From: Cryptosporangium arvum DSM 44712
GTDB taxonomy: Bacteria; Actinomycetota; Actinomycetes; Mycobacteriales; Cryptosporangiaceae
Assembly (NCBI RefSeq): GCF_000585375.1
Contig: NZ_KK073874.1
Span: 8,281,913 to 8,345,912 of the forward strand
Reading direction: 5' to 3'
Length of the DNA: 64,000 bases
The first letter of the stretch is position 1. The number at the start of each line of letters is the position of its first letter. The position numbers and the translations under genes were made by a program. The notes below the pieces were generated by a model that saw nothing but the letters and a program-made list of their open reading frames with translations, was not told the origin of the DNA and made no database searches. Below, one piece after another: positions 6,132 to 22,704 of the stretch.

Positions 6132-8252
6132 ATGCACCGACACACGGACGGGCCCGCCCGCGAGACCCAGAGCCCGACGGCTCGCGCGGCGACGTCGGCC
6201 GACCGGGATTCCGAACCGGAGGCGCTGGTGCGGGCTCTGCAGCGCAGCGCGGGGAACGGTGCGGTGGCCCGGGCGCTGGCCGACGCCCAGGCCACCACGA
6301 CGGTGCCGGACGTCCTGCGGTCGGGAGGTCGTCCCCTGCCCGGCTCGCTACGCACCGAGATGGAGGCCCGTCTCGGCGCCGACTTCTCCGACGTGCGGTT
6401 GCACACCGGCCCGGCGGCGCAGCGTTCGGCCGCCGAGATCGGGGCGCGGGCCTACACGTCCGGCCCGCACGTCGTCCTGGGCACCGGGGGCGGGGACCGG
6501 CACACGCTCGCGCACGAGCTCACCCACGTGGTGCAGCAACGCAGCGGGCCGGTCGCGGGCACGCCGGGCCCGGACGGGCTGGCCCTCTCCGACCCGGGCG
6601 ACCAGTTCGAGCGCGCGGCGGAGGCCGCCGCGACCGCGGCGCTGCGCGGACCGGTTCCCGGCGCGTCACCCGCGCCTGCCGACGCCCCGGCGGCGACCGC
6701 CGGGGCCGCGGTGCAGCGGCTGGTCAAGGTGACCGACAACGGCGTCCGGCTCGCGCACACCGACGACAAGACGCAGGTGAAAGCGCCGTTCACCCAGTCC
6801 GACGCGGACGAGCTGATGAAGCGGGTCACCGCCGCGGTCAACGCCAGCACCGACCCGCGGTTGCAGGCCGACTTCGCCGCGAACGAGGCCCGGGTGGCCC
6901 AGCAGGCGAGCAAGTGGGTCGCCGACAGCAAGGTCGGTGTCGGCGCCGGTCCGGGCTCGTTCGGGGCCAAGCGCCACGTCGTCGAGTACCCCTCCTACGA
7001 GCAGGCGGCGCGCGCGCTCGTCGGGTGGGTGCTCCAGAAGCCCGGCCGGCACGCCGAGAAGAACCTGGCCCGCAACGTGTACGCCGACGACGACGTCTCC
7101 GACCGCCTCGACAGCGTGTTGCGCAAGGTCGAGCGGTGGATCGGCGCGCTGCCCTCCGAACCCGGCCGAACCTTCTTCGACGGCGGCGAGAAGGCGGGCG
7201 ACGTCGACCTGAAGCGGGTCTGGAAGGAGTTGGAGACCGGGAAGGGCCTCGTCAACGACAAGCGGGACGACGGCTGGTCGGACTTCGGCACCTACCAGCA
7301 CCACGTCGACGCGCGTGCCGGCGATGAACGCACCAAGTTCGGGGGCAACTTCCTGGCCGTGCTGCGCCAGCCCGACGAGTACCCGCTCCGCGACAAGGTC
7401 GTCGTCCTGCACGACCTGTACGAGTACTTCAAGCCCGCCAACCTGAGCCGGCCCAACGCACGCACCGCGGGCAACGGTCTGCTCCCCGATCAGCCCGCCG
7501 ACCCGCTGGTCGAGAGCACCCAGCAGGTGGGCCCGCAGGGTGCCCTCGTACGCGGCACGGACAAGGGCACCCTGCGGGGCACCACCCGCAACGAGGACGC
7601 TCCGTCGACGCGGATGGCCCGGGAGCACAACATCCCGGTGTTCGCCGGCCAGTCGGCGACCACGGCCCGGCTGCTCCACCTCGCCCAGTTGGCCGGCGCG
7701 GACGCCGAGGAGCTCAGCGCGGTCGCGCTCGGAATTTTCGCGTTCTGGCGGATCGACTACGACCACACGATGGAACTCTCGTACCACACGCTGCACGAGA
7801 CGCTCGACGTCGCGAAGAACTTCGGGGTGCCCTACGACCAGAACAACCGCGACGCGACCTTCGGCACCTACGCGCGACGGATCGAGGCCGGGCGCCAGCG
7901 GTACATCGAGGACAGCAAACGCACGAACGACCAGTTCGACCGGCAGGGCCGTGTGCTGACCCGGGCCGTCACCGCGCTGGAGGCCGACCACCGCGGACGG
8001 CTCGACCACGGGGTCCGGCACCGGGGTCGCCGCGCCGACGGCCGTCGCCTCCTGGGTGAGTTCACCAACGCCGCAGCGACGTGCCGGACCGCTCTGGACG
8101 CGTTCGCGAGCGCCCCGGCCGAGGAGCGGCAACAGCGGCTGGCCGACTACCAGGAAGCGGTGAGCAAGGCCCGCGAGCTCTTCGCCGCGGTCAGCGCCGT
8201 CGTGAAACAGCAGCGTCTGAACGACGCGGAGACCGCGGAGCCCCCGATCTGA
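6132..8252 (+). CDS. DUF4157 (eCIS-core) putative metallopeptidase/candidate CIS cargo
   Basis: A 706-aa protein. Residues about 65-140 form a DUF4157 domain, with DFSDVRLHTGPAAQRSAAEIGARAYTSG and a zincin-type HELTH motif (His128-Glu129-His132). This domain marks proteins associated with extracellular-type CIS loci, many of them payloads. A low-complexity linker (about 155-195) precedes a 500-residue C-terminal region that I cannot assign. That region contains an aromatic, His-rich segment (FAFWRIDYDHTMELSYHTLHE, spanning about residues 536-556) and a charged helical tail. Its position after the ATPase and before the structural genes fits a loaded effector. A scaffold or maturation role is the alternative. 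Confidence 0.82.
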   Translation: MHRHTDGPARETQSPTARAATSADRDSEPEALVRALQRSAGNGAVARALADAQATTTVPDVLRSGGRPLPGSLRTEMEARLGADFSDVRLHTGPAAQRSAAEIGARAYTSGPHVVLGTGGGDRHTLAHELTHVVQQRSGPVAGTPGPDGLALSDPGDQFERAAEAAATAALRGPVPGASPAPADAPAATAGAAVQRLVKVTDNGVRLAHTDDKTQVKAPFTQSDADELMKRVTAAVNASTDPRLQADFAANEARVAQQASKWVADSKVGVGAGPGSFGAKRHVVEYPSYEQAARALVGWVLQKPGRHAEKNLARNVYADDDVSDRLDSVLRKVERWIGALPSEPGRTFFDGGEKAGDVDLKRVWKELETGKGLVNDKRDDGWSDFGTYQHHVDARAGDERTKFGGNFLAVLRQPDEYPLRDKVVVLHDLYEYFKPANLSRPNARTAGNGLLPDQPADPLVESTQQVGPQGALVRGTDKGTLRGTTRNEDAPSTRMAREHNIPVFAGQSATTARLLHLAQLAGADAEELSAVALGIFAFWRIDYDHTMELSYHTLHETLDVAKNFGVPYDQNNRDATFGTYARRIEAGRQRYIEDSKRTNDQFDRQGRVLTRAVTALEADHRGRLDHGVRHRGRRADGRRLLGEFTNAAATCRTALDAFASAPAEERQQRLADYQEAVSKARELFAAVSAVVKQQRLNDAETAEPPI

Positions 8253-9608: not shown

Positions 9609-9831
9609 GCCCGCACGGTAGGTCCGGCATCGACCGGCGACACCGGTCCAAAAGGCACGCCTCCGGGCAGACCCGCTGCCCGTCCGGGCAACCGCTCTGC
9701 CTCCCGTGGGGCCCGCGCGCCTGTTTCCGTCGGTCCCGGGCGGCGCCACGCTGGTTGGTGATCCGCGTCCGGCGCGGCACCGTCCCCGCCGCGTGGGACA
9801 CCCCCAAGCGACTGATCAGCGAGGAGTCGTC

Positions 9832-11418
9832 ATGCCCACCTACCTGTCGCCAGGCGTGTACGTCGAGGAGGTGGCCGGCGGATCGCGACCGATCGAGGGC
9901 GTCGGGAGCAGCGTCGCCGCGTTCGTGGGGCTCGCGCCGACCGGCCCGCTGAACGAGGCGGTCCTGGTGCGCAACTGGGCCCAGTTCGTCGGCACGTTCG
10001 GCGACTTCAGCGCCGACGCCTACCTGGCGCACGCCGTCTACGGGTTCTTCGCCAACGGCGGCGGCGTGGCCTACGTCGTCCGGGTCGGCGACACGATCGG
10101 TGAGGCCGAGTCCGGTAGCCACCGGGCCCGAGCGGTCGCCGCACCGGGCCGTCCGCGTGCGCTGCCCGACTCCGCCTACGCCGCGCTCGGGACGTTCCGG
10201 GTCGCCGCGGCCGACGGGGTCAGCGCCGAGGGGCTCACCGTCGAAGTGGGCGACCCGACCGGCGACGGCCCGGAGGAGCGGTTCACGCTCACGGTCAAGC
10301 AGGGCGACAACGCCGCCGAGACGTTCGACGTCTCGGCCCGGCGGAACGCGCGGAACTACGTCGTCTCGACGGTCAAGCAGCGTTCGAAGCTCGTCGTCGT
10401 GGAGGAGGCGGCACCCGCCTCGCAGCTGGCCCGGCCGCAGAACCAGGCCGTGGCGGTGCCGGCCGCACCCGAGCAGCCGGCGGCGGTGGCCGTGCCGCAG
10501 CGCAAGCGGCTCGAGCCGACCCAGTTCCTCGGCGACACCGACGAGCGCACCGGCCTCGGCAGCCTGGAAGCGCTCGACGAGATCAGCATCGTCGCCGCGC
10601 CCGACTTGATGGCGGCCTACGAACGCGGCGTGATCGACCTCGACGGGGTCAAGAGCGTTCAGCTCGGCATGATCGCGCACTGCGAGTCGCTGGGCGACCG
10701 GATGGCGATCCTCGACCCGCCGCCCGGCTACGGCGCGCAGGCGATCCGCCGCTGGCGCCAGGACGAGGCCGGCTACGACTCGACCCACGCGGCGCTGTAC
10801 TACCCCTGGATCCAGGTGTTCGACCCCTCCACCGGCCGGCAGCGGCTGGTGCCGCCGAGCGGGCACATGGCGGGCATCTGGGCCCGTAGCGACGCCGAGC
10901 GCGGCGTCCACAAGGCCCCCGCGAACGAGGTGGTCCGGGGCGCCGTCGACCTGGAACTGCAGATCAGCCGCGGCGAGCAGGACCTGCTCAACCCGATCGG
11001 CGTGAACTGCATCCGGGCCTTCCCCGGCCGCGGTGTGCGGGTGTGGGGCGCACGAACCATCTCGTCCGACCCGGCCTGGCGGTACCTGAACGTTCGCCGG
11101 TACTTCAACTACCTCGAGGAGTCGATCCTGCTGGGCACCCAGTGGGTGGTCTTCGAGCCGAACGACCAGGCGCTCTGGGCCCGGATCCGGCGCAACGTCT
11201 CGGCGTTCCTGGTGAACGAATGGCGCGCCGGCGCGCTCTTCGGTGCGACGCCCGAGCAGGCGTTCTACGTCAAGTGCGACGCCGAGACCAACCCGGCCGA
11301 GTCGGTGGACGCCGGCCGCGTGGTCTGCGAGATCGGCATCGCACCGGTGAAGCCGGCCGAGTTCGTCGTGTTCCGGCTCGCGCAGTACTCCGAGGGCGGC
11401 GGCGAACTCACCGAGTGA
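9832..11418 (+). CDS. CIS contractile tail sheath protein (Pvc2/Cis2-like)
   Basis: A 528-aa protein beginning MPTYLSPGVYVEEVAGGSRP, the characteristic N-terminus of phage and CIS sheath subunits, whose extended arms interlock neighbouring protomers. The C-terminal domain contains GVNCIRAFPGRGVRVWGART and RYFNYLEESILLGTQWVVFEPND, standard sheath motifs. A GAGGAG ribosome binding site lies 6 nt before the ATG. It starts the main structural block after the divergent membrane-protein gene. Contraction of this sheath drives the inner tube outward. Only one sheath gene is present. Confidence 0.96.
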   Translation: MPTYLSPGVYVEEVAGGSRPIEGVGSSVAAFVGLAPTGPLNEAVLVRNWAQFVGTFGDFSADAYLAHAVYGFFANGGGVAYVVRVGDTIGEAESGSHRARAVAAPGRPRALPDSAYAALGTFRVAAADGVSAEGLTVEVGDPTGDGPEERFTLTVKQGDNAAETFDVSARRNARNYVVSTVKQRSKLVVVEEAAPASQLARPQNQAVAVPAAPEQPAAVAVPQRKRLEPTQFLGDTDERTGLGSLEALDEISIVAAPDLMAAYERGVIDLDGVKSVQLGMIAHCESLGDRMAILDPPPGYGAQAIRRWRQDEAGYDSTHAALYYPWIQVFDPSTGRQRLVPPSGHMAGIWARSDAERGVHKAPANEVVRGAVDLELQISRGEQDLLNPIGVNCIRAFPGRGVRVWGARTISSDPAWRYLNVRRYFNYLEESILLGTQWVVFEPNDQALWARIRRNVSAFLVNEWRAGALFGATPEQAFYVKCDAETNPAESVDAGRVVCEIGIAPVKPAEFVVFRLAQYSEGGGELTE

Positions 11419-11451: not shown

Positions 11452-11895
11452 ATGTCTCTGCAGCCGGGTGACGCCCTCGCCGCACACAATTTCGGCCTCC
11501 AGATCGACGGGGTCACCGTCGAGTACCTCCAGGAGGTGTCCGGGCTGACGTTCGAGCAGGACGTCATCGAGTATCAGCAGGTCTCGTCGGACGGCAAACC
11601 GGTCACCAAGAAGATGCCCGGGGTGGCCAAGGCCGGTGAGTGCACGGTGACCCGCGGCATGACCGAATCACCGGCGTTCACCGAGTGGATCAACGCGTCG
11701 ATGGCCGGCGACATGGGCAACGCGCGGAAGAACGCGACGATCATGCTGATGGACTACCAGAACTCGCCGGTCAAGCGGTACAACCTGCGGAACGCCTGGT
11801 GTTCACGGATCGAGACCAGTGGAGTTCGGGCCGGTGACGCTTCGGCGCTCACCGAGCAGGTGACGATCACGTACGAAGAACTGGTCATCGAGTGA
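11452..11895 (+). CDS. CIS inner tube protein (gp19/Hcp-like, Cis1)
   Basis: A 147-aa tail-tube protein (PF06841 type), with HNFGLQIDGVTVEYLQEVSGL, VTRGMTESPAFTEWI and a C-terminal ITYEELVIE strand. Hexamers stack to form the inner tube within the sheath. Its gene lies 33 nt after the sheath gene, the usual sheath-tube pairing. Its stop overlaps the next start as TGATG. Confidence 0.94.
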   Translation: MSLQPGDALAAHNFGLQIDGVTVEYLQEVSGLTFEQDVIEYQQVSSDGKPVTKKMPGVAKAGECTVTRGMTESPAFTEWINASMAGDMGNARKNATIMLMDYQNSPVKRYNLRNAWCSRIETSGVRAGDASALTEQVTITYEELVIE

Positions 11896-12386
11896 TGCGG
11901 AGGGCCGCGACCCGGCCTCCGGCCGCGGCTCCGGTTTCGGAGCCGGGTTCGGCGGTGGGTTCGGTGCCGGGTTCGGCGCCGGTCTCGGCGCCGGAGCCGG
12001 AGGGTGGGGCCTCGTCGTTGCGGACGGAGTTCTCGTTCGAGCTGCCGCGAGGTTATGTGGATGAGCTGGGGACGGTTCATCGGGTGGGCACGATGCGGCT
12101 GGCCACCGGCAAGGACGAGCTGATTCCGCTCCGGGATCTGCGCGTGCAGGAGAACCCGGCCTACTTGTCGGTGGTGCTGCTGGCCCGGGTGATCACCGGG
12201 CTCGGCACGCTCCCGAACGTCCACGACGGCATCGTCGAGAACATGTTCGCCGCCGACCTGGCGTTCCTGCAGGACTTCTACCGGCAGATCAACGCCGAGG
12301 GTCACACCAGGGCCGCGGTCGCCTGCCCGCACTGCGCGGAAACGTTCGAGGTCGAACTGGGTGGGAGCCGCCTGGGGGAATCGTGA
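11895..12386 (+). CDS. CIS tail-assembly protein with CPHC motif
   Basis: A 163-aa protein with a Pro/Ala/Ser-rich N-terminal 40 residues and a folded part: FSFELPRGYVDELGTVHRVGTMRLATGKDELIPLRD, then helices, then a C-terminal CPHCAETFEVELG that could bind metal through one Cys pair. This family always sits between the tube gene and the DUF6760 gene in actinomycete CIS loci and is annotated as a phage tail assembly protein. Start overlaps the tube stop (TGATG), and its own stop overlaps the next GTG. Confidence 0.75.
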   Translation: MRRAATRPPAAAPVSEPGSAVGSVPGSAPVSAPEPEGGASSLRTEFSFELPRGYVDELGTVHRVGTMRLATGKDELIPLRDLRVQENPAYLSVVLLARVITGLGTLPNVHDGIVENMFAADLAFLQDFYRQINAEGHTRAAVACPHCAETFEVELGGSRLGES

Positions 12387-12541
12387 CGTACGCGGCCGAC
12401 GCCATCCACGCCGAGACCGCGTACCTCGCGTTCCACCTGCACTGGAACTTGTCCGACCTGCTGGACCTGGAACACCACGACCGCCGCAGATACGTCCGCG
12501 AGACGGCGGCGCTGGTAGAGCGCGCGGAAAGGAACGGGTGA
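12383..12541 (+). CDS. DUF6760 mini-protein of the CIS locus
   Basis: A 52-residue protein: a GTG start overlaps the preceding stop (GTGA) and the frame ends with TGA directly before the next GTG. Its sequence contains ETAYLAFHLHWNLSDLLDLEH followed by DRRRYVRE, the DUF6760 pattern (aromatic/His-rich helix, then LDLEHxDRRR). It occupies the conserved place between the tail-assembly gene and the large low-complexity gene, as in other actinomycete CIS clusters. Function unknown; its tight coupling implies a structural or chaperone role. Confidence 0.85.
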   Translation: MTYAADAIHAETAYLAFHLHWNLSDLLDLEHHDRRRYVRETAALVERAERNG

Positions 12542-15500
12542 GTGAGGGTGGGTCGCTTCGCCCGGTGGGGTTGGCTCGGGGGCCGGGGTAACGCTTCGGC
12601 GGCCGGCGGCGGGGGTGCTGGGGCTGGGGTTGCTGGGGCCGGAGCCGGTGCCGGGGCTGCTGGGGCCGGAGCCGGTGCCGGGGCTGCTGGGACCGGGGCC
12701 GGGGCTTCCCGGGCCGGGGGTGCTGGGACCGGGGGTGCTGGGACCGGGGCTGCTGGGACCGGGGCCGGTGCCGGGGCGGCCGGGGCTTCCGGGGGCGGGG
12801 CTGCGGGCGCTGGGGGCGGGGCCTCGTTGCCGGTGGCGCGAGCGCGGGGGGACGCGTGGACCACCCTGCCGCCGATCTCGGTGCTGGGAAGGCAGCGGCC
12901 GACCACTGCCGGGTTCGAGGCCCACCTCGCGAGCCACTCGCGTCCTCTGGTGACGAGCGGGCTCGACCACATGCGGGACCCGGCCGCCCCGGCGGGAGTG
13001 CTCCACGACGCCTTGGCCCCGGTCGACCGGCCACGATCGGCGACCCGGGCGCGCCCACGCGAGTTACCGGCCTTGTCGCTGCCGGTCGTGAGGCCAGTCG
13101 CCGCCGCGGCAGTTTCCTCGCTCGTGGACAGTTCCGAGTCCTCCTCGGCCGCGGCACCTCTCGGTGAAGAGGGCGACACGGCGGTGGCGCATCGCCCCTC
13201 CCCCGGGCCGGCCCGGTCGGCAGAAGGTGCCGTGCCTGCGCCCATGGTGCAACGTCGCCAGGACGCACCGGGTCGAGCGGCCCGGTCAGCCTCGAAGCCA
13301 CGCTCACTTCCCGACGGGAAGCCCGCCACCGCGGTCCGTGTCACCGACGCGACAAGCAACACGCTCCGTCCGATCGGCGCGGCAAGCGACACGCTCCGTC
13401 CGACCGACGCGACGAGCAGTACGCTCCCTCCGACCGACGCGACAAGCAGCGCGCTCCGTCCGACCGGCACCGCGCCCCATCCGCTCAGCAGCACGGCCGA
13501 ATCGGCAACACACCGGACCGCCGCGGCCGGGCTACCGCGCCCGAACGGCGAAACGCCCTCTCCCACGACGGCAACGAGTGACCCGACCTCGACAGCCGCA
13601 GGTTCTGGTCACCTCGCCCCACGGGGACGCCCAGCCCCCGACCCCGCCACGGCCGCGGAGGCGGAGGCGGAGGCGGGGCAGGCTTCCGCCAGAGCACGCT
13701 CGACCGCAGCCGCCGCCCCCATCGCGCCCGCGCCACCGCTTGTGACGACGGAACCCGCCACCCCCATCCAACGCGCCACCACGGCACCCAGGCGGACGAC
13801 CAGCTCCACTACGCCGCCCCACCCCGCCACCGCAGGACCCGGCCGAGCACCCAACCCCGGCCCGGACCCGCAACCCCAAACCGCAGCCGAAGCGCACACC
13901 CGCTCGACAGCCAGCCCCGCCCCGGCCACGAGCACACGCCCCAGCCCGGCGAGCGACACCGCAGCCGGCGCGCGACCCCGCTCGGCGAACAACACCGCAG
14001 CCAGCACGCGTCCCGGTCCGGCAGGCAACGTCACGCCCAGCGCGGCGAACAACACCGTGCCCGGCGCCCGACCCGGCCCGGCGAACGACGCCCCACCCAG
14101 CGCAGCGGGTACCACCGCAGCGGACCCGCGCTCCGGCCCGGCAGGCAACACCCGCGCTGACACGCGACCCGGCCCCGCGAGCAACACCCGCGCTGACACG
14201 CGACCCGGTCCGGCGAGCAACACCGGCGCTGACGCTCGGCCCAGTTCGGCGAGCAATACCCGCGCTGACGCGCGATCCGGTTCGGCGGGCAACACCGGCA
14301 CTGACGCTCGGCCTAGTCCGGCCAGCGGCGCTGTGCCCGGTGCGCGCCTCAGCTCGGCAGCCGATTCCGCCGGCAACTCGCGCTCTGGTCCGGCGGTCCG
14401 CCCAGGTACCCGGCCTAGCCTGCCGCGCGACGCTGCGGCCGGAGCGGCAACCAATCCTGCAGCCGAGGCGCGGACCGGCCCGACCGTTGGCCCTGCTGCG
14501 AGCTCGCCGCAGGGCCGGGCAGCCGACGTCGCTCAGAGGGCACAGTCCGGTTCGGCAACCAGCCCTGTTGCCGGTACACGGCCCAACCCCGCAGCCGGCA
14601 CACGCCCCATCACCGGCCCCGCGGCCGGTACACGGCCCAACCCGACCACCGAACCCGCCGATGGCGCTCGGCCCCGACCGGCCACGAGCCCAGGTGCGAA
14701 CGCGCGGCCCGGTGCGGCCACGAACTCCGGCGCGAACGCGCGGCCCGGTGCGACCTCTAACCCCGGCACGAACGCACGGCCCGGTCCGGCCACTAACCCC
14801 GGTGCGAACGCGCGGCCCGGTGCGGCGGGCAGTCCGGCGGCAGGTCTGCGGGCCGGGCAGGTGAGCGATTTCGCCGGTGGGTCCTCCGTAGCTGGTGACC
14901 TCGGCTCGGCTCCGCGCTCGACGGTGACCACGAGTTCACCGGGCGACACCCGCTCGAACGGCCCCAGCCCGGCACTTCAATCGGCCGGACGCAGCGCGGC
15001 GGAGTACTCCGGCGGGCTCGGCGCAAAACGCTCCGGTGAGCTCGGCACAGTGCAGCGCTCCAGCGACAAAAGCTCCACGCCACGCTCGGACGCGCCAGAC
15101 CGCTCCGGTGGACACGGCGCCGCACCGCGCGGTGGGCACAATGCCGCGGAGCTTCCGGCTCGGCCCAGCACCACGGATCGTTCCAGTGGACACAGCAGCA
15201 CTGACCGTTCTGCCGGACACAACGCCGCGAATCGTTCCGGTGTGCACAGCGGCGCGGACGGTTCTAGCGCGCATAGCCACGCGAACCGGCACAACACCAC
15301 GGACCGTCCTGGTCGGCACGGCGACGCAGACCGCCCGGATGGGCACAGCAGCGCGGAGCGGGCCGAGGGGCACAGCAGCTCAGAGCGGGCCGGTGGGCAT
15401 GGCTCGGTGGGGCCTTCGGGTGCCGTGGGGCGGGCCGGGGTCGGGTCGGGGGCGGCGGCTGTTCAGCGGGCAGTCGACGGTGGCCAGCAGGTCGGTACGC

Positions 15501-16771
15501 GGCGAACCGGCTCGGACGGTGTCGGTCTGGTCCCTGGGGACGCGCCCCGGGTTTCGGATGGGTCCGGCAGGCGCCCGCACCCGGGGTTGGGCGCGCCGCG
15601 TTCGGGACTCGTCTCGGCGGTGGGCGGGTCGGGCGCTGAGTCCGAGGTCTCGCGGATCCGTTCCGGGCGACGGCCCACCCTGGGGCTCGGGGCTCCGCTG
15701 GCGCCCGGAACCACCTCCACCGCGGCTCCGGAGGAGCGAAGCGCGACCCGGGCACGCGCCGAATCGACGTCTGCCGGGCACGCCGACCCTGGTCCCCGGA
15801 TGGTGCCGCGCGCGCCGGTCGGGCCCAGTACGTCCTCGAGCGCGGGGACACCGCATCTAGAGCGGACACCGACCCCCAACCGCACACCCGCACCCGACCG
15901 CGCAGTAGACCCCGACCGCTCACTGACCCGTGGTGCGCCGGCCGGCGGTCACCCCTCGGCTGCCAACCGCGATGTGGACCGGATCGCGCCGATGTCGGTG
16001 CCGGTGGTGCGGGTTCAGCGGGCCCCGCGCCGGCCGGCTTCGGGTGTCACTCGGCCGACGCTCGGGGGCGCGCTGCCGCTTTCCCGGCGGACCGCGGGTG
16101 GAGCGGCGCGGTCGGCGGGTCACCCCGCCCGGACACAGGGATCGGATCGGACGGTTCCTGCGGCCCCGCTCACACGAATCGGGGAGGCCGGGGCGTCGTC
16201 GCGGCCGGCGGCGGGTGCTGTTGCTCCGTTTCAGCGGTCCGCCGCTGCCCGTTCGGCCGGCTCCCGTGGTCGTGCCGGTACGCCGCCGCCGGCGCCTTCA
16301 CCGCTACTCACCTCGCCGGTCGGCAGCTCGACGCCGAACGCGGCTGCCCAGCGCGCACCCGTGCAGCGCACCTCCGCACCAAGGACACCCGCGCCGAACG
16401 CACCGAGGACACCCGCGCCGAACGCACCGGGGCCGCGAACCACGCCCGGGACACCGCACCCCGTACAGACACGAACGAACGCCGCGCCGACGAACCGCAC
16501 ACCGACACGCAGCGCTCACACCCCCACGCCCCCGGCAAAGACGCCCTCCGCCCCGAAACCCTCTCCGGCGCACACCTCGCCTCCACAACACGCGTCGAGA
16601 AACGCGCCGCGGCCAACGTCGGCGACCGCCGTTCAGCGCCGAACCGCACCTCAACCCACCGAACTCGACGACCTCGCTCGCCGCCTGGTCGAACCGCTCA
16701 GCCGTCTGTTGCGCGCCGAGCTACGCGCCGACCGCGAGCGGATCGGCCGCCTGCGTGACGCACGTTTCTGA
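12542..16771 (+). CDS. 1409-aa low-complexity, repeat-rich CIS protein with conserved C-terminal helix
   Basis: A giant Ala/Pro/Thr/Ser/Gly/Arg-rich, probably disordered protein. In order: a Gly-Ala tract (about 15-100); a conserved island around WTTLPPISVLGRQRP and FEAHLASHSRPLVTSGLDH (about 106-145) seen in other actinomycete CIS proteins; a 10-aa repeat array (274-313); two 12-aa repeat arrays (536-595 and 718-765); a His/Ser/Asp/Arg-rich stretch (about 855-960); VQRA-type motifs; and a conserved terminal helix, ELDDLARRLVEPLSRLLRAE, followed by more charged residues. It starts immediately at the DUF6760 stop. Function unknown; a scaffold, length-determining or baseplate-tether role is conceivable because no ordinary tape measure was found. 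Confidence 0.72.
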   Translation: MRVGRFARWGWLGGRGNASAAGGGGAGAGVAGAGAGAGAAGAGAGAGAAGTGAGASRAGGAGTGGAGTGAAGTGAGAGAAGASGGGAAGAGGGASLPVARARGDAWTTLPPISVLGRQRPTTAGFEAHLASHSRPLVTSGLDHMRDPAAPAGVLHDALAPVDRPRSATRARPRELPALSLPVVRPVAAAAVSSLVDSSESSSAAAPLGEEGDTAVAHRPSPGPARSAEGAVPAPMVQRRQDAPGRAARSASKPRSLPDGKPATAVRVTDATSNTLRPIGAASDTLRPTDATSSTLPPTDATSSALRPTGTAPHPLSSTAESATHRTAAAGLPRPNGETPSPTTATSDPTSTAAGSGHLAPRGRPAPDPATAAEAEAEAGQASARARSTAAAAPIAPAPPLVTTEPATPIQRATTAPRRTTSSTTPPHPATAGPGRAPNPGPDPQPQTAAEAHTRSTASPAPATSTRPSPASDTAAGARPRSANNTAASTRPGPAGNVTPSAANNTVPGARPGPANDAPPSAAGTTAADPRSGPAGNTRADTRPGPASNTRADTRPGPASNTGADARPSSASNTRADARSGSAGNTGTDARPSPASGAVPGARLSSAADSAGNSRSGPAVRPGTRPSLPRDAAAGAATNPAAEARTGPTVGPAASSPQGRAADVAQRAQSGSATSPVAGTRPNPAAGTRPITGPAAGTRPNPTTEPADGARPRPATSPGANARPGAATNSGANARPGATSNPGTNARPGPATNPGANARPGAAGSPAAGLRAGQVSDFAGGSSVAGDLGSAPRSTVTTSSPGDTRSNGPSPALQSAGRSAAEYSGGLGAKRSGELGTVQRSSDKSSTPRSDAPDRSGGHGAAPRGGHNAAELPARPSTTDRSSGHSSTDRSAGHNAANRSGVHSGADGSSAHSHANRHNTTDRPGRHGDADRPDGHSSAERAEGHSSSERAGGHGSVGPSGAVGRAGVGSGAAAVQRAVDGGQQVGTRRTGSDGVGLVPGDAPRVSDGSGRRPHPGLGAPRSGLVSAVGGSGAESEVSRIRSGRRPTLGLGAPLAPGTTSTAAPEERSATRARAESTSAGHADPGPRMVPRAPVGPSTSSSAGTPHLERTPTPNRTPAPDRAVDPDRSLTRGAPAGGHPSAANRDVDRIAPMSVPVVRVQRAPRRPASGVTRPTLGGALPLSRRTAGGAARSAGHPARTQGSDRTVPAAPLTRIGEAGASSRPAAGAVAPFQRSAAARSAGSRGRAGTPPPAPSPLLTSPVGSSTPNAAAQRAPVQRTSAPRTPAPNAPRTPAPNAPGPRTTPGTPHPVQTRTNAAPTNRTPTRSAHTPTPPAKTPSAPKPSPAHTSPPQHASRNAPRPTSATAVQRRTAPQPTELDDLARRLVEPLSRLLRAELRADRERIGRLRDARF
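12599..12818 (+). repeat. GGGG-rich Gly-Ala coding repeat
   Basis: Imperfect repeats of GCTGGGGCCGG and GCTGGGACCGG encode alternating Gly/Ala. The coding strand has more than a dozen closely spaced runs of three or more G, a composition compatible with G-quadruplex formation in the mRNA or non-template DNA near the start of the giant gene. Confidence 0.75.
13361..13480 (+). repeat. 30-bp in-frame tandem repeat, about four copies
   Basis: Units encode a ten-residue pattern TLRPTDATSS with variants TLRPIGAASD, TLPPTDATSS and ALRPTGTAPH. Copies are contiguous and codon-phased inside the giant CIS protein. Confidence 0.85.
14147..14326 (+). repeat. 36-bp in-frame tandem repeat, five copies
   Basis: Each unit encodes twelve residues of the type NTRADTRPGPAS; later copies drift to NTGADARPSSAS and NTGTDARPSPAS. 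The first two copies are nearly identical at DNA level, indicating recent duplication. Confidence 0.9.
14693..14836 (+). repeat. Second 36-bp in-frame tandem repeat, four copies
   Basis: Units encode GANARPGAATNS, GANARPGATSNP, GTNARPGPATNP and GANARPGAAGSP. The unit length equals that of the upstream array and the RPG core is shared, so the two arrays may derive from one ancestral 12-residue repeat. Confidence 0.9.
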
Positions 16772-16785: not shown

Positions 16786-17223
16786 ATGCCGCCTGCTCTC
16801 GATCCGGCCGCCACCGTGTTCTTCCGGCTGGCGATCGACGGCCAGGACCTCGGCCTGTTCTCCAGTTGCGACGGTCTCTCGTCGGAAGTGGTGATCGAGA
16901 CCCGGGAAGAAGGCGGCAACAACGACTTCGTCTGGCAGCTGCCGTCGCGGGTCACCTACTCCACGATCACGCTGGGGCGGCCGCTCACGCCGGACACCGC
17001 GAAGGTCGCCGCGTGGATCTCGTCGATCTCCAAGGGCATCGATCGTCCGACCGCGCAGATCGCCGCGCTCCGGGCCGACGGTTCGACCGTCGCGCAGTGG
17101 GGGCTGATCGAGGTGCTCCCGGTCCGGTGGACCGGCCCGAGCCTCGACCCGGGCAACCCCGGCGTCGCGACCGAGACGCTGGAGATCACCCATCACGGCT
17201 TCACCGACGCCGGAGCGGTCTGA
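16786..17223 (+). CDS. Second tube-like CIS protein (gp19 family, tube initiator/adaptor)
   Basis: A 145-aa PF06841-type protein: FFRLAIDGQDLGLFSSCDGLSSEVVIETREEGG, then ITLGRPLTPDTAKVAAWISS and TETLEITHHGF. CIS loci carry several tube paralogues; the one beside the LysM hub and the spike usually forms the first tube layer on the baseplate hub. Its stop overlaps the LysM gene start (TGATG). Confidence 0.88.
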   Translation: MPPALDPAATVFFRLAIDGQDLGLFSSCDGLSSEVVIETREEGGNNDFVWQLPSRVTYSTITLGRPLTPDTAKVAAWISSISKGIDRPTAQIAALRADGSTVAQWGLIEVLPVRWTGPSLDPGNPGVATETLEITHHGFTDAGAV

Positions 17224-17924
17224 TGCCGCCCCGCGGACGCAACGCGAGCCTGGTCAAGGCGAAGCTGACGATCAATCGTCCGCCGGCCGGTGTGGGTGGC
17301 CGCCTGGCCGAGGTCGAGTTCCAGTTCAACCCGTCGCAGCTGCAGATGTCGCGCTCGGCGTCCTGGCACACCCAGCCGGCGGTGGCCTACACGAAGGGAG
17401 CCACGCCGGAGTTCGCCGGGGTCACACCGGCCACGCTCGAGGTCGAAGTCTTCCTGGACGCGTCCGACCGGCCCGCCGGGTCGAAGGTGCAGCAACAGGT
17501 CGATCGGCTCCTGTCCTGCTGCGAGGTGGAGCCGCAGAGCATCGCGGCGAAGAAGCCGGCGCCGCCGTGGGTGCGGTTCTCCTGGGGTTCGTTCACCACG
17601 CCGGGATTCGCCGCCAACGTGCAGAGCGTCAACGCCACGTACACGCTGTTCAGCCCCACCGGGGAACCGTTGCGGGCGACCTGCCAGCTCTCCTTGTCGG
17701 AGATCCCACTCCCCACCAAAGGCCAGAATCCGACGTCGGGCGCGCGCTCGGCGACCCGCGTGCACCGGGTCGTCGCGGGGGACTCGCTGGCGAGCGTGGC
17801 CTGGCGCGAGTACGGCGACCCGACGCTCTGGCGTGCGGTCGCCCGGGCCAACGACATCGACGACCCGATGCGATTGACGATCGGCAGCGAGCTCCTGCTC
17901 CCGTCAGCCGGAGAGATCAAATGA
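17223..17924 (+). CDS. LysM-domain baseplate hub adaptor (Pvc7-like)
   Basis: A 233-aa protein. The N-terminal part (AKLTINRPPAGVGGRLAEVEFQFNPSQL) matches CIS tube-spike adaptor proteins, and the C-terminal 55 residues form a LysM module (HRVVAGDSLASVAWREYGDPTLWRAVARAN, then LTIGSELLLP). In CIS this protein joins the tube layer to the spike trimer; LysM here is a structural element rather than proof of peptidoglycan binding. The start overlaps the tube-like gene stop and the end overlaps the spike gene start (ATGA). Confidence 0.88.
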   Translation: MPPRGRNASLVKAKLTINRPPAGVGGRLAEVEFQFNPSQLQMSRSASWHTQPAVAYTKGATPEFAGVTPATLEVEVFLDASDRPAGSKVQQQVDRLLSCCEVEPQSIAAKKPAPPWVRFSWGSFTTPGFAANVQSVNATYTLFSPTGEPLRATCQLSLSEIPLPTKGQNPTSGARSATRVHRVVAGDSLASVAWREYGDPTLWRAVARANDIDDPMRLTIGSELLLPSAGEIK

Positions 17925-19783
17925 CCCGGATCCTCACCAGCGTCCTCGCCGTCGACGTGGACGGTGCCCCGCTCCCCGACCAGCTCAACGCGCTCCTGCT
18001 CGAAGGCTGGGTCGACACCAGCGTCACCGTCCCGGCCGCGTTCGGCCTCGTGTTCAGCGACCCCTACGGCACCGTGCTGCGCGACAACCGGCAGCTGACC
18101 GTCGGCGCGAAGGTCAAGCTGTCGGCGATCACCGACGGGACACGCAGCGACCCGCTGCTCACCGGTGAGATCACGGCGCTGGAGATGGACGCGGACACCG
18201 CCGGGCGGACGCTGCTCGTGCGGGGGTACGACCCGGGGCACCGGCTGGTCCGGGTCCGCCGCGTCGAGGGCTACCCGAACATGACCGCCGCCGACATCGT
18301 CCGGAAACTGGCCGGGCAGGCGGGCGTCCGCGTCGGCCGGATCGACCCGACGCCGACCGTCTACGACCTCGCCACCCAGCCGAACCTCACCGACTGGGAC
18401 TTCCTCACCCGCCTGGCCCGCGAGAACGACGTCCGGCTGTACTTCGACGAGGACGGCGCGCTGCAGTTCCGCGAGCTGCCCAAGGCCACGTCCGCGCCGT
18501 CGGACACCACGCCGTCGACGCAGAGCCCGTACGTGCTCGAGTTCGGCACGAACACCCAGCGCAGCCGCGTCGGGCTCACCGCGTCCGGGCAGGTCAAGAA
18601 GGTCGAGGTGCGCGGCTGGGACGTCAAGACGAAGCGCGCGCTGAGCGCCGAGACCCCGGCGGGTACGTCGCCGGACGTCCAGCCGGATCTGACGCCGGCC
18701 CAGCTCGTCGCGAAGTTCGGCACCGCGGGTCTGGTGGAGACGAGCGTGCCGTACACGACCCAGGCGCAGGTGCAGCACGCCAGCGAGGCGCTCGCGCACG
18801 ACGTCGCCGGGTCGTCGGCCGAACTCGAGGTGACGGTCACCGGCAACCCGTCGCTGCGCCCCGGGCAACCGGTGGCGGTCAACGGCGCCGGGTTCCCGTT
18901 CGAGGGCCGGTACACGGTCACCGACGCCCGGCACGTCTTCGCGTCGGGACGGCAGTACGTCACCCGGGTGGGGGTCAGCGGGCGTCAGTTCCGGTCGCTC
19001 TACGGCCTCACCTCGGGTGGTTCCGACGACGCACCGAACCTGCCCGGCGTCGTGATCGCGCAGGTCAGCAACGTCCGCGACCCGCTGAACATGGCCCGCG
19101 TCAAGGTCAAGTTCCCGTGGCTGTCCGACACCTACGAGAGCGACTGGTGCCGGGTGGCGCAGTTCGGCGGTGTCCGTGGCGGCGGACTGATGTTGCCCGA
19201 CGTCGACGACGAAGTGCTCGTCGCGTTCGACCGCGGCTCGCTGGAGCACCCGTACGTGCTCGCCGGCCTCTACAACGGCAAGGACCGTCCGACCAAGCAG
19301 TCAAGTGGCCTGGATCCGGTGGACGGCACCAGCGGCCGGATCAACTGGCGCAGCGTCACGACCAGGGCGGGTCACGCGCTCGAGTTGATCGACGCTCCGA
19401 CCAAAGCGGGGCGGGGCGTCCGGCTGCAGACCGGTGACGGGAACCTCTCCGTGCACCTCGACCAGAGCAAGACCACGGTGACGATCGACAGCACCGGCAC
19501 GGTCACCATCAGCGGCACCCGCGCGGTGAAGATCCGCTCGGCCGGTGACCTGGACCTGAGCGCCGCCCGCTCGGTGACGATCAGCGGTGGTGGCGCGGTC
19601 AACATCCGGGCCGGTGGACGGGTCGGCGTCAACGCCGGCGGCGCCGTGATGATCGACGCGGTCGGGGCGGTTAACGCGAAGGCGGCGGGCCCGGTGAGCG
19701 TGCAGTCGGCGCTCAACACGTCGGTCACCGCGACCACGATCACGCTCACCGGCGTCACGTTGCGCAACGGCGTCCCGTTCTGA
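17921..19783 (+). CDS. VgrG-like spike protein (gp27-gp5 fusion, Pvc8-like)
   Basis: A 620-aa protein. Residues 1-370 form a gp27/late-control-D-like hub (EITALEMDADTAGRTLLVRGYD, GQAGVRVGRIDP). Residues about 376-452 form the gp5 OB-fold (GVVIAQVSNVRDPLNMARVKVKFPW, with LMLPDVDDEVLVAFDRGSLEHPYVLAGLYNG). Residues about 500-612 carry VTISG-type repeats expected to form a triple-stranded beta-helix needle. It ends in NGVPF with no appended effector domain. Trimers form the piercing spike at the baseplate centre. Confidence 0.93.
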   Translation: MTRILTSVLAVDVDGAPLPDQLNALLLEGWVDTSVTVPAAFGLVFSDPYGTVLRDNRQLTVGAKVKLSAITDGTRSDPLLTGEITALEMDADTAGRTLLVRGYDPGHRLVRVRRVEGYPNMTAADIVRKLAGQAGVRVGRIDPTPTVYDLATQPNLTDWDFLTRLARENDVRLYFDEDGALQFRELPKATSAPSDTTPSTQSPYVLEFGTNTQRSRVGLTASGQVKKVEVRGWDVKTKRALSAETPAGTSPDVQPDLTPAQLVAKFGTAGLVETSVPYTTQAQVQHASEALAHDVAGSSAELEVTVTGNPSLRPGQPVAVNGAGFPFEGRYTVTDARHVFASGRQYVTRVGVSGRQFRSLYGLTSGGSDDAPNLPGVVIAQVSNVRDPLNMARVKVKFPWLSDTYESDWCRVAQFGGVRGGGLMLPDVDDEVLVAFDRGSLEHPYVLAGLYNGKDRPTKQSSGLDPVDGTSGRINWRSVTTRAGHALELIDAPTKAGRGVRLQTGDGNLSVHLDQSKTTVTIDSTGTVTISGTRAVKIRSAGDLDLSAARSVTISGGGAVNIRAGGRVGVNAGGAVMIDAVGAVNAKAAGPVSVQSALNTSVTATTITLTGVTLRNGVPF

Positions 19784-19802: not shown

Positions 19803-20210
19803 GTGAGCGAGCAATTCGTCGGCGCCGGCTGGGCGTTCCCGCTACGGACGGACACGTCCGGGGCGGTGGCGCTGGTACGGCGGGAACGAGAGATCGAAGA
19901 GGCGATCCGCCTGGTGCTGGCCACCGCGCCGGGCGAGCGGCCGATGCGGCCCGAATTCGGGTGCGCGATCCACGATCTGGTGTTCGCCCCGGTCAACGAG
20001 GCGACCGCCGGTGCGATCCGGCAGGAGGTGCGGCTGAGCCTGGACCGGTGGGAGCCGCGGATCGAGGTGGCCGACGTCGTGGTGACGATCGACGACGGCG
20101 ACGCGACCGTGCTGCTCATCGACGTCCAGTACGTGGTGCGCGGCACCAACAACCCACGCAGCCTGGTGTTCCCCTTCTACACGATCCCGGCGATCGAGGG
20201 TGGTCGCTGA
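19803..20210 (+). CDS. Baseplate wedge protein gp25-like (GPW/gp25, Pvc9)
   Basis: A 135-aa protein with the gp25 lysozyme-like wedge signature: REREIEEAIRLVLATAPGERPMRPEFGC, then IRQEVRLSLDRWEPRI and VQYVVRGTNNPRSLVFPFY. It connects baseplate and sheath initiation. GTG start; its stop overlaps the next ATG. Confidence 0.95.
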   Translation: MSEQFVGAGWAFPLRTDTSGAVALVRREREIEEAIRLVLATAPGERPMRPEFGCAIHDLVFAPVNEATAGAIRQEVRLSLDRWEPRIEVADVVVTIDDGDATVLLIDVQYVVRGTNNPRSLVFPFYTIPAIEGGR

Positions 20211-22165
20211 TGGCGCTGCCCGCCCCCAACCTCGACGACCGGCACTTCCAGCAGTTCGTCGACGAGGCCAAGCGCTACATCCAGCGCACCAGTCCGGAGT
20301 GGACCGACCACAACGTCTCCGATCCGGGCATCACGCTGATCGAGGCCGTCGCCCACATGGTCGACCAGCTCGTCTACCGGCTGAACCGGGTGCCGGAGAA
20401 GAACCACCTGGCGTTCCTCGACCTGCTCGGCGTCCGGCTGTTCCCGCCGTCAGCGGCCGCGGCCGACGTCACGTTCTGGCTCTCCGCCCCGCAGACCGAA
20501 CCGGTCGTGTTACCCGCGGGCACCGAGGTGGCCACGCAGCGCACCGAGACCGACGAGGCGGTGGTGTTCGCGACCGGCTCCGCGCTGACGATCCCGAACG
20601 CGTCGCTGGAGCGGGTGATCCGGCAGGTGCGCGGCGGCGACGCCGAGGACCGCACCCGCGAGCTGCTCGGCGACGGCGACATCGCGGTGTTCGGCGACCC
20701 GATCCAGCCCGGCGACGTCGTGCTGTTCGCGCTGTCCGCGGCCGTGCCCAGCTGCACGGTCGTGCTGGAGCTGGAGAGCCGCGTCGACGGCGTCGGCGTG
20801 GACCCGCGGCAGCCACCGCTGCGCTGGGAGGCGTGGACGCCCCGCGGCTGGCGGGCCTGCGAGGTCGACCGGGACAGCACCGGCGGGCTGAACCGCGAGG
20901 GCGAGGTCGTGCTGCTCGTCCCGCCGGGGCACGCCCGCTCGGCGATCGCCGGGCACCAGGCGGGCTGGCTGCGGTGCCGGGTCGTGGAGCCGGCGAAGGG
21001 CCAGCCGTTCTACGCCTCGTCGCCGACGCTGCGCTCGGCGTCGGGCTACACGATCGGCGGGACGACCAGGGCCGCGCACGCGATCGTCGTCCGCAACGAG
21101 CTCCTCGGCGAGTCCACCGGCATGCCGGGCCAGCGGGTGCGGCTGCCGCACCGCCCGGTGCTGGCCGACGAGCCGCCGTTGACGCTGGAGGTCGCCGCCG
21201 ACGACGGCTGGTACCTCTGGAACCCGGTCGGCGACTTCGGCCGGTCCAAACCCGGCGACCGGCACTACACGCTCGACGCGACCGCGGGCGAGATCGCGTT
21301 CGGACCGTCGGTGCGCCAGCCGGACGGCTCGCTGCGTCAGTACGGCGCCGTGCCGCCGGTGGGTGCGGCGATCCGGGCCGCGCGCTACCGGGCCGGCGGC
21401 GGGCGCACCGGCAACGTGGCCCGCGGCGCGATCCAGGTGCTGCGCACGTCGATCCCGTACATCGCCCGGGTGGAGAACCGGGAGAACGCGACCGGTGGTG
21501 TCGACGGCGAGACCGTCGAGGAGGCCAAGCTCCGCGCGCCGATCGCGCTGCGCGCTCAGGACCGGGCCGTGACCGCGCGCGACTACGAGGAGCTGGCCCG
21601 GCAGGCCGCGCCGGAGGCCGCCCGCATCGCCTGCCTCGGCGCGGACGCGGCCGAGAACGGCGAGTACGCCGTCCGTCTGCTGGTGGTGCCGCAGGCGGTC
21701 GCCGACCCGGGCGGTCGCCTGCGCTTCGAACAACTGGTTCCGGACGACGCCCTGCTGGACCGGGTGACCCGCTACCTGGACGAGCGGCGGCCGCTGGGCA
21801 CGCGGCTCTCGATCGGGCCGCCCTTCTACCAGGGCGTCACCGTGACGGCCACGGTCCGGGCGTTCGGGCGGGCCACCGCCGCGGCGGTGCGTGAAACCGC
21901 GCTGGGGAGCCTCTACCGCTACCTCGATCCGCTGGTCGGCGGCCCGGACGGCACCGGCTGGCCCGTCGGCCGGTCGCTGCGCTCCGGTGACCTCTTCGGC
22001 GTCCTCGCGCAGGCCGCGGGCGTCGAGCTGGTCGAGGACGTCCAGCTGATCGCCGTCGACCCGCTGACCGGTCGCCGGGCCGAGCCGACCGACCGGATCG
22101 ATCTCGGACCGGCGTCGCTGTTCTTCTCCTACGAGCACGCCCTGCAGGTCCGGGCCGCCCGATGA
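20210..22165 (+). CDS. Baseplate assembly protein J (Pvc11-like)
   Basis: A 651-aa putative baseplate assembly protein. The N-terminus YIQRTSPEWTDHNVSDPGITLIEAVAHMVDQLVYRLNRVPEKNHL is typical of the large actinobacterial gpJ/Pvc11 wedge subunit. The central region has YTLDATAGEIAFG and the C-terminal third has RAPIALRAQDRAVTARDYEELARQAAPEAARI, the baseplate J core. Overlaps both neighbours by 1-4 nt. Forms the wedge ring that triggers sheath contraction. Confidence 0.93.
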   Translation: MALPAPNLDDRHFQQFVDEAKRYIQRTSPEWTDHNVSDPGITLIEAVAHMVDQLVYRLNRVPEKNHLAFLDLLGVRLFPPSAAAADVTFWLSAPQTEPVVLPAGTEVATQRTETDEAVVFATGSALTIPNASLERVIRQVRGGDAEDRTRELLGDGDIAVFGDPIQPGDVVLFALSAAVPSCTVVLELESRVDGVGVDPRQPPLRWEAWTPRGWRACEVDRDSTGGLNREGEVVLLVPPGHARSAIAGHQAGWLRCRVVEPAKGQPFYASSPTLRSASGYTIGGTTRAAHAIVVRNELLGESTGMPGQRVRLPHRPVLADEPPLTLEVAADDGWYLWNPVGDFGRSKPGDRHYTLDATAGEIAFGPSVRQPDGSLRQYGAVPPVGAAIRAARYRAGGGRTGNVARGAIQVLRTSIPYIARVENRENATGGVDGETVEEAKLRAPIALRAQDRAVTARDYEELARQAAPEAARIACLGADAAENGEYAVRLLVVPQAVADPGGRLRFEQLVPDDALLDRVTRYLDERRPLGTRLSIGPPFYQGVTVTATVRAFGRATAAAVRETALGSLYRYLDPLVGGPDGTGWPVGRSLRSGDLFGVLAQAAGVELVEDVQLIAVDPLTGRRAEPTDRIDLGPASLFFSYEHALQVRAAR

Positions 22166-22704
22166 GAGGCGGCGGCGAGAACCTGGGCAGCAGCCACCCG
22201 ATCGGCGCGAGCCTCCCCGGCGTCTACGCCGAGGACGACCTGCTCCAACGGTTCTCCGGTGGCCTCGACGCCGTGCTCGGCCCGCTGATCAACGTCCTGG
22301 ACTGCCTGCCCGCGTACTTCCGGCCGGAGATCGCGCCACCGGACTTCCTCGACTGGATCGGCGGGTGGGTGGGCGCGGGCAGCGACCCGCACGGCGACCC
22401 GGAGCCGGTCCGGCGTCGGGCCGTGGCCCAGGCGACGGCCGCGCACCGGCTACGCGGCACCCGCCGGGGGCTGGCCGAGGCCGTCGCCCTGGTGTTCGGC
22501 GTCGAGCCGGAGATCACCGAGAGCGGTGGCGCGGTCTGGTCGGCCCGCCCGCTGCAGGCCTTTCCCGGCGACCCGCGGCCGTCGGTGCACGTCCGGCTCC
22601 GGGTTCCGGACCCGGCCGCCATCGACGTCCGGCGCCTGAACGCCGTGGTGGCCGACGTGTGCCCGGCGCACCTGCCCTACCAGGTCGAAGTCGTCAAGCA
22701 GTGA
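22162..22704 (+). CDS. Phage tail protein I-like baseplate component (Pvc12-type partner)
   Basis: A 180-aa protein with PGVYAEDDLLQRFSGGLDAVLGPLINVLDCLPAYFRPEIAPPDFLDWIGGWVG, then RLRGTRRGLAEAVALVFGVEPEITE and a C-terminal VRLRVPDPAAIDVRRLNAVVADVCPAHL, as in tail protein I families that complete the wedge. Its ATG overlaps the baseplate J stop (ATGA). No tail-fibre gene follows it, where phages and Pvc clusters usually have one. Confidence 0.88.
   Translation: MRGGGENLGSSHPIGASLPGVYAEDDLLQRFSGGLDAVLGPLINVLDCLPAYFRPEIAPPDFLDWIGGWVGAGSDPHGDPEPVRRRAVAQATAAHRLRGTRRGLAEAVALVFGVEPEITESGGAVWSARPLQAFPGDPRPSVHVRLRVPDPAAIDVRRLNAVVADVCPAHLPYQVEVVKQ

Follow-up and report, generated by a model that had tools for sequence, protein, structure and literature searches.

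Phage tape measure proteins include gpH of lambda and gpT of P2, and in the gene orders of lambda, P2 and Mu the tape-measure gene is placed after the gene of the tail-assembly chaperone (TAC). YscP and FliK, the rulers of the type III secretion needle and the flagellar hook, are partly disordered chains whose length tracks that of the tube. Here we describe a giant repeat protein encoded in a 64,000-nucleotide stretch ('the window') of Cryptosporangium arvum DSM 44712, part of a 9.2-Mb single-contig genome, in a contractile injection system (CIS) locus that is, by sequence comparison, orthologous to the CIS of Streptomyces coelicolor. In the text available from each, papers on the Streptomyces cluster state that it has no 'typical' tape measure (PMC10066040) or that the tape-measure gene is absent (PMC12237407, PMC10286715); yet one of them reports S. 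coelicolor particles of 268 nm, all those analysed being of the same length and having 61 layers of sheath and 60 of tube (PMC12237407).

Among the closest described proteins, the diffocin tape measure CD1366 is reported as a trimer whose C-terminal helices rest on the spike, 817 aa long in a particle of 32 layers and 1388 Å (PMC10996793). The Alg6 plug of AlgoCIS is described as a trimer that occupies the spike cavity, carries a helix at its C terminus and is required for assembly (PMC8894135), and the Anabaena spike as plugged by three copies of Cis6 (PMC8894136). Two further large CIS proteins have been proposed to be tape-measure relatives. Tme of S. davawensis, about 70% disordered according to the portion of the paper at hand, carries a DUF4157 and a nuclease domain (PMC11126660), neither of which is matched in the repeat protein; Sle1 of S. 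lividans, an effector, has a coiled coil and a gene upstream of the sheath (PMC13277306), and neither is true of the repeat protein. A literature search, in the partial texts that it returned, found no description of a disordered or plug-fused CIS tape measure and no report on a frameshifting TAC in a CIS.

We lean towards reading the C. arvum repeat protein as a tape-measure-like scaffold of the tube lumen in the actinobacterial (type IId) CIS, in which a disordered chain rich in Pro and Ala takes the place of a coiled coil. Because it lies in the ruler's slot beside phage-style ruler-loading helper genes, it is the best candidate for setting the length of the syringe. A tape measure without a coiled coil would, to our knowledge, be the first, and since tests by sequence match and for a coiled coil fail we do not file the protein as a member of a tape-measure family. 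The core of the locus is laid out as follows.

11892..12386, + strand: TAC, 164 aa, with a CPHC motif (phrog_508, Gp41_Mu and Phage_TAC_7 matches)
12374..12380, + strand: slippery heptamer GGGGGAA, in frame (G GGG GAA), the same in 81 of 81 sequences, window included
12388..12395, + strand: 5′ arm of a stem 3′ of the slippery site (8 pairs, covariation)
12417..12424, + strand: 3′ arm of the same stem (covariation)
12383..12541, + strand: DUF6760-type frame, 52 aa, in the −1 frame of the TAC, a GT-like extension (DUF6760 name from annotated relatives)
12548..16771, + strand: repeat protein, tape-measure-like (open frame from 12542; open reading frame and homologue starts)
12548..12571, + strand: N-terminal start motif, MGRFARWG in the window (relatives have MGFLDRLR or variants of it; 54 of 54 main-clade copies fit a loose pattern)
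12857..12877, + strand: W..LPPI island, with a QR continuation in many relatives that is absent in the window (pattern searches)
13343..13466, + strand: 30-bp (10-residue) array, 4.1 copies
13931-14022, 14133..14326 and 14665-14826, + strand: 36-bp (12-residue) arrays (tandem repeat detection)
15092..15399, + strand: His-rich stretch, which holds arrays of 25 bp and of 27 bp (the latter at 15166-15250 and 15341-15399)
16655..16744, + strand: conserved C-terminal helix ending ER.G (AlphaFold2 helix at 23-52 of the last 60 residues; alignment)
16786..17223, + strand: tube initiator Cis1b, CIS5-like (Pfam gp19, 2.1e-29; CIS5_fam, 4.9e-17, below the NCBIfam cut-off; PDB 9gtp_a, 3e-64)

The gene upstream of the repeat protein belongs to a family with the sequence relationships of a tail-assembly chaperone. 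Profile comparison matched 30 of 35 members to phrog_508, a tail assembly chaperone family, at E ≤ 0.1 (best 2.3e-8; window member 0.041), one member each matched Gp41_Mu (1.3e-3) and Phage_TAC_7 (0.02), and some annotated relatives are named phage tail assembly protein. The AlphaFold2 model of the TAC (pLDDT 82.5) gave eight Foldseek matches to viral models at E 0.001, including baseplate and T4-type baseplate hub assembly proteins. Against the PDB, neither Foldseek with this model at E 0.001 nor a TAC profile search produced a match, and a phage collection held no match to the window's TAC.

The 3′ end of the TAC gene reads CTG GGG GAA TCG TGA in all 81 sequences compared, and GGGGGAA recurs in 35 of 59 further TAC loci, in frame every time; the available text of the PRFect paper counts the heptamer among observed slippery motifs (PMC10274946). 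The 80 named loci behind these and other named-locus counts, from Streptomyces, Streptacidiphilus and Actinacidiphila, are the best 80 of 140 in a scan with the TAC protein. Of 90 degenerate, residue-invariant codon columns in the TAC, 21 use a single codon in all 81 sequences: seven form the run before the stop, GGG AGC CGC CTG GGG GAA TCG, and the remaining 14 encode residues with two-fold degeneracy, no four- or six-fold degenerate column outside the terminal run being fixed in this way. The GAA codon at the slip site is not unusual in itself; of seven other Glu columns, four have GAG in 80-81 sequences, one has it in 75, and the last two use both codons, GAA standing in 37 and 60 sequences. 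As 6 of 35 slip-site loci have no ATG, GTG or TTG within the first five codons of the 52-aa frame (five have CTG), frameshifting is favoured over re-initiation.

An 8-bp stem begins 7 nt 3′ of the slippery site. It was examined in 53 loci (48 distinct of 65) that we chose from 127 slip-site loci, a set from which seven species-repeating loci and six of seven S. clavuligerus records had been removed and in which the slip site is conserved by construction. Across these loci 90.1% of cells are paired and six of the eight pairs show double changes, giving a covariation score of 0.149 versus 0.072 in shuffles, none of 500 of which reached it; slid controls scored at most 0.056. The TAC, the −1 DUF6760 frame, the slippery site and the stem make up what is, as far as sequence can tell, the lambda G/GT arrangement. 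As in lambda G/GT and P2 E/E′, there are a TAC family match, a slippery heptamer, a −1 extension, a stem and an adjoining ruler gene; unlike those systems, the cassette lies in a CIS, the DUF6760 extension is small and the TAC carries a CPHC motif. The frameshift itself is a prediction from the nucleotide sequence.

Because this cassette lies directly upstream, the repeat protein sits where lambda, P2 and Mu place the tape measure. The first-pass annotation had put the gene in the slot of a tape measure or scaffold and had found no conventional tape-measure gene; both points stand, as the gene follows the frameshifting TAC and precedes the tube-initiator and hub genes, and general family scans of the cluster proteins returned no tape-measure family. 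Its neighbours are those of a CIS: ATPase, eCIS_core protein, sheath, tube, the 164-aa TAC, the 52-aa frame, Cis1b, hub, baseplate J and Tail_P2_I. The likeness to phage and tailocin tape measures thus covers position, very large size and a helical C-terminus; unlike them, the body is Pro/Ala/Gly-rich, with no coiled coil as judged from composition, no conserved transmembrane segment and no sequence match. The rulers YscP and FliK share with it a partly disordered chain and differ in being secreted and in belonging to an unrelated machine.

Gene order is kept across the main clade, in which the window's arrangement A runs sheath, tube, TAC, DUF6760 frame, repeat protein, Cis1b, hub, J; in arrangement B, found in other lineages, the repeat protein follows the tube initiator and lies between gp19 and hub. 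Fifty-seven named loci, window included, hold the C-terminal helix and a second tube gene, and 54 have one intact frame, L016 (frame-broken) and L048 and L065 (runs of N) having been dropped before the main-clade counts. Frame-broken copies stand beside otherwise close CIS genes in L151, L156 and L016, through sequencing error in repeats or real loss. For wider sampling, the TAC-family profile was run on two overlapping genome sets and matched 50 of 394 at class level and 21 of 296 at phylum level; 59 regions from these sets and one of the window's genus were compared, and 20 were added later. Starts are approximate in several loci outside the named set.

The repeat protein is conserved at both ends and variable between them. 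The open frame of 1409 aa from 12542 to 16771 is present as first described, and its start is more likely the GTG at 12548 (1407 aa), since the pattern M-G-[FLI]-L-D-R-[LF]-R, or a variant of it, opens most of the main-clade homologues. The proposed conservation of the N terminus is borne out: a loose start pattern occurs in 54 of 54 main-clade copies and W..LPxI[QR][RLP] in 45 of 54, the window copy (WTTLPPIS) being among the nine misses; a looser form matches 51 of 54. So is that of the C-terminal helix, which AlphaFold2 predicts as a single stretch of 30 residues (block pLDDT 95-97 in the core), of the main-clade type DELvhRiigritRLiRtELRlDRERIGrLRDPR. The helix profile matches between TAC and hub in 54 of 57 named and 57 of 68 other complete loci, 111 of 125 loci holding TAC and hub, a count that keeps species present twice (for example L037/L090, L028/L152 and L060/L154). 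Of the 14 misses, five (L051, L060, L082, L089 and L154) show the helix in translations and L100, L111, L135 and L136 a shorter form of it.

Between the ends, the residues A, P, G, S, T and R abound, and Pro makes up 13.5% of the window copy and 20% on average in the clade. The 10- and 12-residue arrays (30 and 36 bp) and the His-rich stretch are real, and 27-bp arrays occur in the latter as well. Tandem arrays are found in 52 of 52 main-clade genes examined, and in 449 of 505 arrays the period is a multiple of 3; L011 and L078, which hold internal N, were left out of these repeat counts and of the pair counts below. The description of the protein as probably disordered agrees with its composition (12% order-promoting residues versus 28-37% in eight neighbour proteins), from which we infer that the body is disordered; the charge-hydropathy plot does not agree, calling just 1 of 54 main-clade copies negative. 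Third-position GC in the frame is not raised, unlike in the neighbours, so that conservation, not codon bias, marks it as a gene.

A three-residue motif recurs along the chain. VQR is found in 54 of 54 main-clade proteins (633 observed, 9.5 expected), and [VILMF]QR occurs about 14 times per protein (6-24) versus 0.4 by shuffling, in counts that cover window and loci; the window copy holds 8 QR motifs. The motifs are spaced more evenly than random placement would give (coefficient of variation 0.72 versus 0.99; lowest of 200 simulations 0.90). All 54 main-clade copies are net positive, and CIS tube lumens are described as negative in the accessible part of PMC8894135.

Main-clade lengths lie between 998 and 1407 aa (mean 1209, s.d. 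91, 54 loci), and lengths outside the main clade between 528 and 1628 aa (starts approximate), with, for example, 538, 590 and 608 aa in three loci of one lineage (starts approximate); L113 and L115 were dropped from the length table. In the main clade a bounded-length Ornstein-Uhlenbeck (OU) model with an optimum near 1195 aa reached a log-likelihood of 78.0, versus 71.7 for drift and 65.7 for no phylogenetic signal (56 rows, one species twice), on a FastTree tree of sheath, J and TAC in which long-branch joins are flagged. The first-pass annotation had proposed that length can change in steps of the repeat unit. Lengths do differ between species and the arrays are mostly in frame, but indels between sister species come in many sizes, not just 10 or 12 residues; within S. 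clavuligerus, the seven records fetched of 16 are identical (1381 aa), possibly through descent from one strain. Between close pairs whose structural proteins are 90-98% identical, the middle of the repeat protein retains 41-82% identity (median about 60%), and 18 independent pairs carry a median of 300 aa in indels for a median net change of 65 aa; these alignments are of low complexity and single indels are uncertain.

An estimate of residues per ring comes from the apparent S. coelicolor copy. In a set of 392 genomes, all from one genus, 162 match the Cis1b query from the PDB at E 1e-40 and two are identical over 136 of 136 residues (9gtp); in one of the two the sheath is identical over 534 of 534 residues to 8bky, and the repeat protein, in the same gene order, has 1378 aa. 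We take the chains 8bky and 9gtp to be the published S. coelicolor structures. Divided over 60 tube rings, 1378 aa give 23.0 residues per ring (one data point), close to the 25.5 residues per ring, at 1.70 Å per residue, that follow from the diffocin figures reported for CD1366 in the available text of PMC10996793; with 4 nm for each layer, as in diffocin, the figure for the S. coelicolor chain would be about 1.74 Å per residue. That the repeat protein sets particle length is plausible. By gene order it would be SCO4249 in S. coelicolor; the SCO4249 of PMC13033682 was set aside, since in the part at hand that name is written for PhoP.

A tape-measure-like scaffold of this kind could work as follows. 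A few copies would dock through their C-terminal helix in the cavity of the spike and tube initiator, like the Cis6 plug and the C-termini of phage tape measures; the TAC and its frameshift product TAC-DUF6760 would keep the chain extended; tube rings would polymerise around it up to its N-terminal end, after which the cap would close. Residence in the lumen, the docking site and control of length are inferred here. More tentatively, with somewhat less than even confidence, we propose that type IId CIS length is measured by a disordered chain fused to a plug helix like that of Cis6. This fast-evolving chain, dotted with motifs, positive in the main clade and loaded by a frameshifting chaperone, would be tuned by indels and by repeat gain and loss, with lineage set points (about 540-610 versus 1200 aa) and about 23 residues per ring.

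Several observations weigh against a lumen ruler. The repeat protein has no match in Pfam or NCBIfam and in PHROGs just one, phrog_7187, of unknown function (0.0021); its composition is not that of a coiled-coil body, and no transmembrane or hydrophobic segment is conserved (maximum 19-residue Kyte-Doolittle window: median 1.15, window copy 1.65, highest 1.79). Five of the 125 loci (L114, L119, L130, L139 and L141) show no recognisable helix in translations. Outside the main clade the QR motifs are rare in several lineages and just 16 of 30 copies are net positive. Net length change in the 18 close pairs matches or slightly exceeds that of a random walk (mean z2 1.66); there is thus no sign of compensation, and length is not tightly held over short times; strict conservation over such times was rejected on this ground. 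Over 84 loci, a test that leaves eleven arrangement-B or divergent loci outside, OU (72.5) brings no gain over drift (72.8). RNAalifold gives no consensus stem on the same stem alignment, and single-sequence folding of eight loci is just slightly better than shuffled (z −0.5 to −1.6). Three published points add to these, each from partial text: S. coelicolor particles are also reported to average 295 nm, without one exact length (PMC10020575); the proteins of purified particles include unknowns named sco4242, sco4256 and sco4251, the last of which would be the chaperone by gene order, and the repeat protein is not named among them (PMC10020575); and particles without Sco4256-4258 have a mostly empty-looking lumen while otherwise looking wild type (PMC10066040). 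A few disordered chains might be invisible in such lumens, which is an excuse, not evidence. In S. clavuligerus the gene could escape proteomics, because the annotation holds just its last 216 bp: on plasmids L178, L179 and L184 (7040-11185), it consists of the last 216 bp of the 1381-aa frame and a reverse-strand frame, in a PLSDB gene table that is incomplete by its own description.

The alternative that survives best, though we consider it unlikely, is a plug with a dispensable tail, in which just the C-terminal helix would count, nucleating assembly as a spike plug of the Cis6 type, and the long disordered region would be under weak constraint and have no role through its length. The random-walk-like net length change suits this view, as do the fast turnover of the middle and the helix being the best conserved part. 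Arrangement-B relatives and a Nostoc plasmid, where the gene sits between the gp19 tube initiator and LysM/hub genes, hold it at the cis6 position, and the likeness to the Cis6/Alg6/Afp6 plugs, as the available parts of PMC8894135 and PMC8894136 describe them, lies in a C-terminal α-helix and, in the arrangement-B relatives, in this location between cis5 and cis7. By the same sources Alg6 is a small plug, whereas the helix described here ends a chain of about 500-1600 residues and the window gene precedes Cis1b. A search of the PDB with the helix profile up to E 10 gave ten chains, none a CIS by name, and did not find Alg6 or Cis6, so that the helix is like the Cis6 plug in its predicted form and not in its sequence. 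Of the 57 main-clade loci checked, 54 retain a long chain of bounded length, with a start motif in 54 of 54 and regularly spaced motifs, and a useless tail needs none of these.

Slightly less likely still is a cargo scaffold or lumen filler, a chain that would load, space or hold effectors (for example DUF4157 or membrane-active proteins) and be ejected with them without setting length. An eCIS_core (DUF4157) match occurs somewhere in 43 of 46 chaperone-bearing genomes, QR motifs recur in the chain while the window's DUF4157 frame has LQR and VQR once each, and the main-clade chain is net positive where the lumen is reported as negative (PMC8894135, in part). Against this, the kept TAC/frameshift cassette points to tube assembly rather than cargo loading, no catalytic domain was matched, and lumen density depended on Sco4256-4258 in the accessible account (PMC10066040). 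Family scans of the repeat protein, which covered catalytic domains, DUF4157, coiled coils and a membrane C-terminal domain, matched none. The idea that DUF4157 proteins (HExxH-like) cleave at QR motifs was also dropped, because the 43 of 46 genomes with DUF4157 include lineages nearly without the motif, so that the presence of the domain is uninformative.

A tether from baseplate to membrane, which the first-pass annotation had raised as a possible span for the protein, is very improbable: the chain is very long and the CIS must reach the membrane, but it has no conserved hydrophobic segment, its gene lies among tube-assembly genes and, in the available text of PMC12237407, the published membrane protein of the Streptomyces CIS, described for that role, is CisA. 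That the frame is spurious, arising in repetitive high-GC DNA, is scarcely credible in spite of the lack of a Pfam or NCBIfam match and of a third-position GC signal and of the S. clavuligerus plasmid annotation that covers just 216 bp, since it is intact in the same place with a conserved start and end in 54 main-clade loci and two other plasmids annotate 1020- and 1009-aa hypothetical proteins carrying the C-terminal motif.

Beyond the actinobacterial set, plasmids of Nostoc, Paenibacillus and Rhodococcus and one contig of a viral collection carry the same cassette, a large frame and a similar-looking end. The Nostoc frame ends LADQVYQVIERKIKVERQRRG, and the helix profile gives E 0.07-0.12 or no match for these wider relatives, so the sequence link to them is weak. 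A scan of viral contigs with the TAC found four loci with large frames. In one contig (L170:4196-7387) the chaperone of a CIS-like cassette is followed by a frame of 1063 aa whose end, VERKIIQRLIVEGERRG, resembles the C-terminal helix. In Deinococcus taeanensis (L175:9288-13808) a 1506-aa open frame in the slot continues without a change of frame into a gene annotated as DUF4157, and the two may be fused. The CIS stretch of Haloferax larsenii (L174) has a chaperone, DUF6760 and gp19 and no adjoining annotated repeat-protein gene; for another haloarchaeal CIS, the part of PMC11566945 at hand reports that homologues of a tape measure or plug were not found and that the (contracted) sheaths varied in length.

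The remaining genes of the window's CIS locus flank this core.

3898..6111, + strand: AAA+ ATPase with winged-helix domain, the CIS ATPase (Pfam WHD, 3.9e-22; AAA, 5.9e-22)
5436..8252, + strand: eCIS_core (DUF4157) protein, true start probably internal to the frame (Pfam eCIS_core, 1.6e-26; translation)
8256-9749, − strand: Ig-like and ricin-type lectin gene between eCIS_core and sheath (domain matches)
9706..11418, + strand: sheath, Cis2 (Pfam Phage_sheath_1, 1.7e-24; PDB 8bky_A, E 1.6e-253, 845 bits)
11452..11895, + strand: inner tube protein, Cis1a (Pfam Phage_T4_gp19, 2.6e-32)
17567..19783, + strand: hub/spike of VgrG/Pvc8 type, start uncertain (Phage_base_V, 2.1e-18; Phage_GPD, 1.1e-14)
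19961..22165, + strand: baseplate J, start uncertain (Baseplate_J, 8.1e-16)
22162..22704, + strand: baseplate Tail_P2_I (1.1e-9)
22727..23608, + strand: possible CisA-like protein with zinc ribbon and discoid domain, assigned by position alone (NADase_discoid, 5.3e-16)

The sheath probably starts near 9832, with 42 residues upstream (9706-9831), because the alignment to 8bky begins at residue 43. The product of the gene at 8256-9749 (−) is a candidate CIS effector, to be compared with Sco4257/4258. One of three other genomes of the window's genus (L146) matches the tube protein (33%), in a cluster without a detected chaperone frame; on this comparison the window's CIS cluster may be horizontally acquired.

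The Streptomyces CIS papers describe a cluster in which the tape-measure gene is absent and, in one case, particles identical in length; a candidate gene can now be named. The ratio of residues to rings yields numeric predictions of particle length for other species: about 57 rings in S. parvulus (1310 aa), 60 in S. clavuligerus (1381 aa) and 23-27 in the lineage with copies of 540-610 aa. If the repeat protein is a tape-measure-like scaffold, it would account for a uniform S. coelicolor CIS with 'no' tape measure, and a contractile machine could have a disordered chain as its molecular ruler.

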